Assembly (NCBI GenBank): GCA_001856825.1
Contig: ATMD01000002.1
Span: forward strand, 62,004-126,003
Direction of reading: 5' to 3'
Length of the DNA stretch: 64,000 nucleotides
DNA from: Thermoplasmatales archaeon I-plasma
Lineage (GTDB): Archaea > Thermoplasmatota > Thermoplasmata > Thermoplasmatales > GCA-001856825
Shown here: positions 55,082 to 56,926 of the stretch, in pieces
How the letters are laid out: each line of letters opens with the position of its first letter
Position numbering within the stretch: position 1 is the first letter of the stretch
Notes under the pieces: model-generated
The model's database searches: none
The model's input: only the letters and a program-made list of their open reading frames with translations
Told to the model about the DNA's origin: nothing
Program-made: the position numbers and the translations under genes

Positions 55082-56266
55082 TTAGTCTGTCACTGCGTAC
55101 TTCTTGTTGAGTTTTTCCGGCCTAGTGAATTTGAAGAACTGGTCGAAGATTGGATCTGCGGTACCCATTAGCGTCATCCAGTAGATCCTTGCCATAGTCA
55201 TCTTCATCATATGTTTGAGTCTCGTGGGCGGGTAAGGCGCAACAGGGTTGTTGTAATCCGCTATCACGAACGTTGCCTTGCCATAAGCCGTGTCGAATGG
55301 GCAGTTTATCCTTCCGTTAAACTCAGAATACTTGCCCTGAATTATGTCTGCTACAGCCATGGCCTCAAGATGGGCGGTGACCCCTGTTTTAGAGGTTGGG
55401 AGGGTGTTGCAGTCCCCGACAGCAAATGCATCGTCATATCCGCTGATCTTCATGAGCTTCTTGTCAGCCTTGATGAATCTGTCTTCATCCTGAACAGTTT
55501 CAGGAATTATCTTGATTTTCGTTCCCTTGCAGGGTGGGACTATTATTGGAAGGTCATACTTTAGCGAGTCCCCCTCAAGGGAGGTGATGGTCTTCGTCTG
55601 TGGATCTATTGCGTCGACGTCAAAGAATGGCATTACCTCAATTCCACGCTCTTTCACCAATGGCTCAACAACCCTGTTCATCGGCTCTGCAGGATAAGCC
55701 CTGGGGAACGGGGTGAAGAATACTATTCTTGTCTTATCCCTCAAACCGACTTTCTTCAGATGTTCCTCCAGCAGGAAGGCGCCTTCAAGCAATGATGGAG
55801 GACATTTGCATGTTGGGGATGCTTGACCTATTGCTACAGTCCCGCCCTTGAATTTGCTTACATTTGACCACAGTTTTTGCGAACTCCAGACACTTGTATG
55901 GTAGTCGCCATATTCATCGTAAGTCTGCCTCAATCCGGGGATTGAGTCTGGGTCTGGATTAGTACCAGTGGCTATGACAAGGTAATCGTAGTTGTATATC
56001 CCCTTCCTGGACCCGTAGACCTTTCTTTCGTCGAGGTTTATTGTAGATATCTCGTCTTTCACGAAGTTTGCGCCTGGTTTCAACAGTTCCCCAATTGGTC
56101 TTGATATCTTCCTCTTTGAACCCTTGAAGGCGATATAGAGAAACCATGGTTGATAGAAATGAAGATCACTCCTGTCTACGACAGTCACGTCATACTCATT
56201 AGTATCTAGATGGTTTGCTAATATTAGCCCCCCTCCACCTCCACCTATTATCAGTACCTTCTTCAT
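55082..56266 (-). CDS. sqr: Sulfide:quinone oxidoreductase-type flavoprotein
   Basis: FAD protein of 394 residues, oxidising sulfide and passing electrons to the membrane quinone pool. VLIIGGGGGGLILANHLD is the FAD-binding fold; FYQPWFLYIAFKG, DYLVIATGTNPDPDSIPG and the central CKCPPSLLEGAFLLEEHL region (two nearby Cys) fit archaeal SQRs; PPCKGTKI adds the third Cys, and AVGDCNTLPTSKTGVTAHLEAMAVADII is the second FAD motif. The C-terminal amphipathic HMMKMTMARIYWMTLMG may contact the membrane. Last gene of the DsrE-TusA-SQR operon, 13 nt after tusA. Confidence 0.92.
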   Translation of the reverse strand: MKKVLIIGGGGGGLILANHLDTNEYDVTVVDRSDLHFYQPWFLYIAFKGSKRKISRPIGELLKPGANFVKDEISTINLDERKVYGSRKGIYNYDYLVIATGTNPDPDSIPGLRQTYDEYGDYHTSVWSSQKLWSNVSKFKGGTVAIGQASPTCKCPPSLLEGAFLLEEHLKKVGLRDKTRIVFFTPFPRAYPAEPMNRVVEPLVKERGIEVMPFFDVDAIDPQTKTITSLEGDSLKYDLPIIVPPCKGTKIKIIPETVQDEDRFIKADKKLMKISGYDDAFAVGDCNTLPTSKTGVTAHLEAMAVADIIQGKYSEFNGRINCPFDTAYGKATFVIADYNNPVAPYPPTRLKHMMKMTMARIYWMTLMGTADPIFDQFFKFTRPEKLNKKYAVTD

Positions 56267-56279
56267 TGCAATCGTCCGC

Positions 56280-56520
56280 TTATCTCTTGTTTATCTTGAT
56301 CTTTATTGATATCTTTTCAGGATCTTCCTTCACTTCTAGTACTTCGTTGCCGGTTTTGGTTGCCCATGCCTGTGTGTCTGCCTTGACTCCCTTGTCTGTG
56401 GCCCAGAGCTCAAGTATGTCCCCTACCTTGGAGTTCCTGTACGCCTTTGCAAGATCTGTTATCGGGCCCAGGGCATGCCGATCCCCTTGAATCGATTATT
56501 TTAACTGCATCCATTGTCAT
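56280..56520 (-). CDS. tusA: TusA-family sulfur carrier, frame broken by one extra base
   Basis: The ORF track shows only a 61-residue frame ending wrongly. Read from ATG 56520 it gives MTMDAVKIIDSRGSACPGP, the TusA/SirA sulfur-carrier motif with the persulfide Cys. Skipping one base near 56463 continues as ITDLAKAYRNSKVGDILELWATDKGVKADTQAWATKTGNEVLEVKEDPEKISIKIKINKR and stops 13 nt before sqr: a complete, normal-size TusA (about 79 residues). No other stop interrupts it. It accepts sulfane sulfur from SQR or DsrE-like partners. An error in base calling in GGGCCCGATAAC is the simplest explanation; a true mutation would leave a truncated protein. Confidence 0.85.
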
Positions 56521-56524
56521 CACC

Positions 56525-56926
56525 TTAGATGAAGAGCATCTGACCTCCTTCAGCTTCCTGAAGGAATGTTGCAGCACCAACCATGTCGTCAACAATTGGG
56601 TCCAGGTCTTCTCTCTTTATGTTCATCACGCCGCACGCCATGGAGCAGGCATAGACCTTGGCCCCAAATTCCTTTGCTTCCTTCACCATGTCGTACCACG
56701 AGCTCACCTTTTCTCTTTTCATTCCTTCCATGAGAGCAGGTCCCATGTTTTCAAATTCTTTTGGAAGAATCATTTTCTTTTCTCCCTTTGTGAACCCCAA
56801 CAGGCCCCAGAACGTCACGAAAAGCCTGACCTCTGTGCCCATTGCAGCAGCTGCCTGGGATAGAACTCCGACAGAAAGCAGTTTGTCTGTGGTTCCGCTA
56901 AAAACGACAATAGATAGTTTACTCAT
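56525..56926 (-). CDS. DsrE-family sulfur transfer protein (DsrE2-like)
   Basis: A 133-residue DsrE/F-fold protein. SIVVFSGTTDKLLSVGVLSQAAAAMGTEVRLFVTFWGLLGF is the N-terminal strand-helix unit with the W-G-L motif of DsrE2; the reactive Cys pair lies in GAKVYACSMACGVMNIKREDLDP. Such proteins pass persulfide or thiosulfate sulfur with TusA and rhodanese in archaeal and bacterial sulfur oxidation. Starts ahead of tusA by 4 nt, preceded by GGGAGAC. Confidence 0.92.
   Translation of the reverse strand: MSKLSIVVFSGTTDKLLSVGVLSQAAAAMGTEVRLFVTFWGLLGFTKGEKKMILPKEFENMGPALMEGMKREKVSSWYDMVKEAKEFGAKVYACSMACGVMNIKREDLDPIVDDMVGAATFLQEAEGGQMLFI

Follow-up and report, generated by a model that had tools for sequence, protein, structure and literature searches.

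A tusA gene split by one extra base in an archaeal dsrE-tusA-sqr cluster, probably an insertion error of the assembly

The analysis of the window, i.e., the whole 64-kb stretch of DNA under study (C2:62004-126003 of genome assembly G000), revealed a tusA gene whose reading frame is broken by a single extra base at the CPGP motif. Comparisons at the sequence level indicate that the break is most probably, with a probability of about 0.85, a spurious one-base insertion in the assembly, resulting from a sequencing or assembly slip. We infer an error rather than a mutation because the gene is intact in all aligned relatives and the same kind of insertion was found in several unrelated genes of this assembly. 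The gene itself is an ordinary tusA of a Thermoplasmata archaeon, located in an already known kind of cluster.

The split tusA gene and its neighbours

Frame 0 of tusA starts normally (MDAVKIIDSRGSACPGP) and leads into the CPxP motif with the sulfur-carrying cysteine, present here as CPGP and located at the break. Behind this motif, frame 0 continues into an unrelated tail followed by a stop (DNRSCKGVQELQGRGHT), and the product as assembled is a 34-aa peptide. The frame switch occurs at TGCCCTGGGCCCGAT and the remainder of the protein (ITDLAKAYRN...KIKINKR, 60 codons) is encoded in the +1 frame, which translates as ITDLAKAYRNSKVGDILELWATDKGVKADTQAWATKTGNEVLEVKEDPEKISIKIKINKR and ends with TAA. 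The span from the start codon to the end of the TAA comprises 235 bases, that is, 78 codons and one base, and a TusA peptide reconstructed across the break would read SACPGPITDLAK. The simplest assumption is that the extra base is among the three Gs at positions 56467-56469.

In the frame of the downstream piece, no ATG, GTG or TTG start follows the last stop. The gene is covered by none of the open reading frames listed for the window (no listed ORF covers 56514-56280), as noticed in the preliminary description, which had proposed that a complete TusA was missed since CPGP and the rest lay in different frames around one extra base within 56440-56480; both the frame change and the suggested place proved correct. 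The downstream piece alone scored 42-43 bits against the Pfam TusA family (PF01206), above the cut-off of 28.6. The openness of this frame is by itself weak evidence, as it stayed open in 3.5% of base shuffles, whereas the homology is far beyond chance.

Table 1. Features of the locus and positions of the other broken genes
Feature	Position	Strand	Details	Basis
tusA, split	56280..56514	-	frame 0 from ATG 56514 to CPGP, then +1 frame to TAA at 56280
Extra-base site, CCTGGGCCC	56464..56472	-	relatives one base shorter here
dsrE-like gene	56525..56926	-	133 aa; candidate active Cys94 (and Cys98)	Pfam DrsE_2, alignment with 2qs7
Sulfide:quinone oxidoreductase-like flavoprotein gene (sqr)	55082..56266	-	394 aa	Pyr_redox_2, alignment with mitochondrial SQR
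Other broken genes of G000	C1 ~31777, ~145218; C2 ~31336, ~57179, ~136275, ~208023, ~319902		short insertions
Products of the other broken genes			transketolase-type subunit, PGI/SIS sugar isomerase, arginase-family enzyme, NAD epimerase, lumazine synthase, amino-acid-permease-like membrane protein, ABC ATPase	family assignments for the first five; reading of the sequence for the last two

The corrected tusA fits exactly into the gap between the stop of the dsrE-like gene at 56525 and the start of sqr at 56266, in the place that the preliminary description had assigned to it. The SQR-like flavoprotein has the FAD-binding fold, as judged by its match to Pyr_redox_2 (62 bits), and its Cys155 and Cys322 align with two cysteines of mitochondrial SQR, located in the KC and SCP motifs, that form the catalytic pair of that enzyme. 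Its best match to the NCBIfam family SQR_III_seleno reached 241 bits against a cut-off of 525, and the protein is, judged by its sequence, homologous to this family but of another subtype. The DsrE-like protein exceeded the cut-offs of two Pfam families (DrsE_2, PF13686, 84.6 bits; PF02635, 25.5 bits). The solved structure closest to it is 2qs7, with Cys94 aligning with the ACS cysteine.

Intact relatives and selection on the shifted frame

A search of 60 related genomes gave Pfam TusA matches in 32, the genome of the window itself not counted, and no match contained an internal stop. A DNA alignment with 13 relatives showed tusA intact and the extra base absent in every one of them, the window alone carrying the insertion, at CCCTGGGCCCGAT. 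Across the site, G002 has TGCCCTGGCCCGATAACAGAT and the window TGCCCTGGGCCCGATAACAGAT; the sole difference is one G, with G002 reading CCCTGGCCCGATAACAGATCTTGC and otherwise the same letters. CPGP was invariant among the aligned genes, and a single uninterrupted frame of about 75-80 codons, which the window's tusA lacks, was found in every one of them. None ended after CPGP with a different C-terminus, the case named in the preliminary description as speaking against its proposal. For comparison with the 42-43 bits of the downstream piece, an intact TusA orthologue scored 63 bits against PF01206.

The order dsrE-tusA-sqr was present in all genus relatives read at the locus (G001-G008 and G010), where the preliminary description had suggested looking for intact operons, and also in family members G012 and G014 and in several genomes from the other families of the order. 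This confirms that the three genes form a stable unit within this order of archaea. The same order was also observed on two contigs labelled Acidobacteria (L061 and L062), whose proteins are 42-59% identical to the archaeal ones; this could reflect either transfer or mis-binning.

In the tusA region the window and G006 share about 92% DNA identity. Behind the break, 11.5 synonymous and 3.5 nonsynonymous changes were counted in the shifted frame relative to G006, giving a dN/dS of 0.068, and the values for the neighbours were 0.047 (dsrE) and 0.035 (sqr). The shifted frame is under strong purifying selection, similar to that on dsrE and sqr, which implies either that the gene is still intact or that it was maintained as a TusA gene until a very recent time.

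Insertions elsewhere in the assembly and the origin of the break

The scan for frame breaks covered contig C2 of G000 together with 300 kb of its contig C1 and 100 kb of its contig C3, each compared with 758 kb of G010. Among 424 orthologous genes (374 kb), eight breaks were detected in G000, all of them insertions and none a deletion. Six of the eight read as one extra base; in the arginase-family and lumazine synthase genes, a short run of a few bases may instead have been duplicated in tandem. With equal odds of insertion and deletion assumed, the two-sided probability of eight insertions in eight events is 0.008, an excess that is significant, yet based on few events. At this frequency, about one break per 47 kb of the coding sequence compared, a stretch of 64 kb should contain about one, and missing or short genes in this assembly should therefore not be taken as gene loss. 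In a comparison of 94 genes with contig C23 of G006, tusA and the ABC ATPase gene were again broken in G000, with a third small gene possibly affected as well, and no breaks apart from that third gene were noticed in G006. The PGI gene, which lies in an 18-kb block 98.4% identical to contig C10 of G006, showed the change of GG to GGG, the same as in tusA.

The reverse scan for breaks in G010 gave two calls, neither of them convincing. For one (G000 C2:92446-93453 against G010 C6:66898-67903), the query ORF seems to extend upstream beyond the real gene, its N-terminal part resembling a wrong-strand reading, and for the other, at C1:17085, the C-terminal match was weak (59%). An apparent break at C2:153930, in a small membrane-protein gene with an extra G in a GGGG run relative to G006, was left out of the eight as it is visible against G006 only, and a short partial match at C2 ~102250, at the end of a G006 contig, was not counted. 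Outside the 98.4% identical block (G000 C2 304021-322031, G006 C10 1-18000), the two genomes are about 92-94% identical, which suggests a recent exchange or uneven divergence.

The insertion-only pattern across the genome, suggestive of systematic errors of this kind in the assembly, favours an error over a mutation in tusA. The spurious base would have lengthened the G run from GG to GGG and broken the frame in the assembled sequence only, and the organism most likely has an intact tusA encoding a TusA of 77 aa that carries the CPGP cysteine. A real, very recent one-base insertion, by which this strain or population would have lost a functional tusA, appears unlikely. Such a mutation would leave the same substitution pattern, which is a point against the error reading, and it agrees with the given sequence being broken and its downstream part having no usual start codon of its own. 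However, the relatives are all intact, tusA carries no further lesions, selection on the shifted frame is undiminished and other, unrelated conserved genes are likewise broken by insertions alone. The presence of a second TusA-like paralogue in the genome could also speak for a loss, but this paralogue has no CPxP motif and coexists with an intact tusA in G006, and so does not look like a replacement.

A real extra base that the ribosome bypasses by +1 slippage from CCC-G to CCG, right where the catalytic CPGP is encoded, so that a full-length TusA with CPGPITDL is made, is very improbable and, in what we consider the most likely ranking, comes a distant third after an assembly insertion error and a recent real mutation. 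Proline sites of the CCC-N type are known to be slippery, the required shift is +1 and a slip at CCC-G yields exactly the conserved protein; against this, the site occurs in no relative and is hence unconserved, it has no stop codon to pause the ribosome, and the seven other broken genes of the assembly have no slip motif in common. The least credible reading assumes two separate short proteins, one an N-terminal peptide of 34 aa that includes CPGP, which frame 0 does encode, and the other an independent C-terminal protein. The peptide matched no Pfam family, a usual start codon is missing from the C-terminal part and no relative shows such an arrangement.

Comparison with known sulfur-transfer systems

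A DsrE-TusA-SQR sulfur relay, as proposed in the preliminary description, is plausible here from the gene context and the match to a known cluster type. By analogy with known systems, SQR would oxidise sulfide and the sulfane sulfur would then be carried on cysteines of DsrE and TusA. In the acidophilic archaeon Metallosphaera cuprina, the genes for TusA, SQR and DsrE4 (Mcup_1722-1724) are likewise located side by side, although the order here is DsrE-TusA-SQR, and the transfer chemistry was demonstrated for DsrE3A and TusA (PMC4175335). Members of the DsrE4 group are encoded next to, and downstream of, sulfide:quinone oxidoreductase (Liu et al. 2014; PMC4175335); in the window, dsrE and sqr share a cluster, with dsrE upstream and tusA in between. 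Loci of the genus and order, including those of the MAGs YP5.bin4 (JAKAXD010000003.1) and YP3.bin60 (JAKAUZ010000003.1), share the gene order, the close spacing and orthologous proteins with the window and, unlike it, have an intact tusA.

The Thermoplasma acidophilum TusA (Ta1170/Ta1414; PDB 1pav) is of the same family and size with the same CPGP region, and among solved structures it matched the intact orthologue from G006 best (E = 6e-17), whereas the window copy is split by one extra base. Two tusA copies of equal score, reminiscent of the Ta1170/Ta1414 pair, were observed in each of G033 and G035 (contig C1 in both). The second TusA-like gene of G000 (C2 313120-313350, L002) is identical at the DNA level to its counterpart in G006 (C10 8668-8898, L050); in its product ACASI replaces ACPGPI, the first cysteine being kept.
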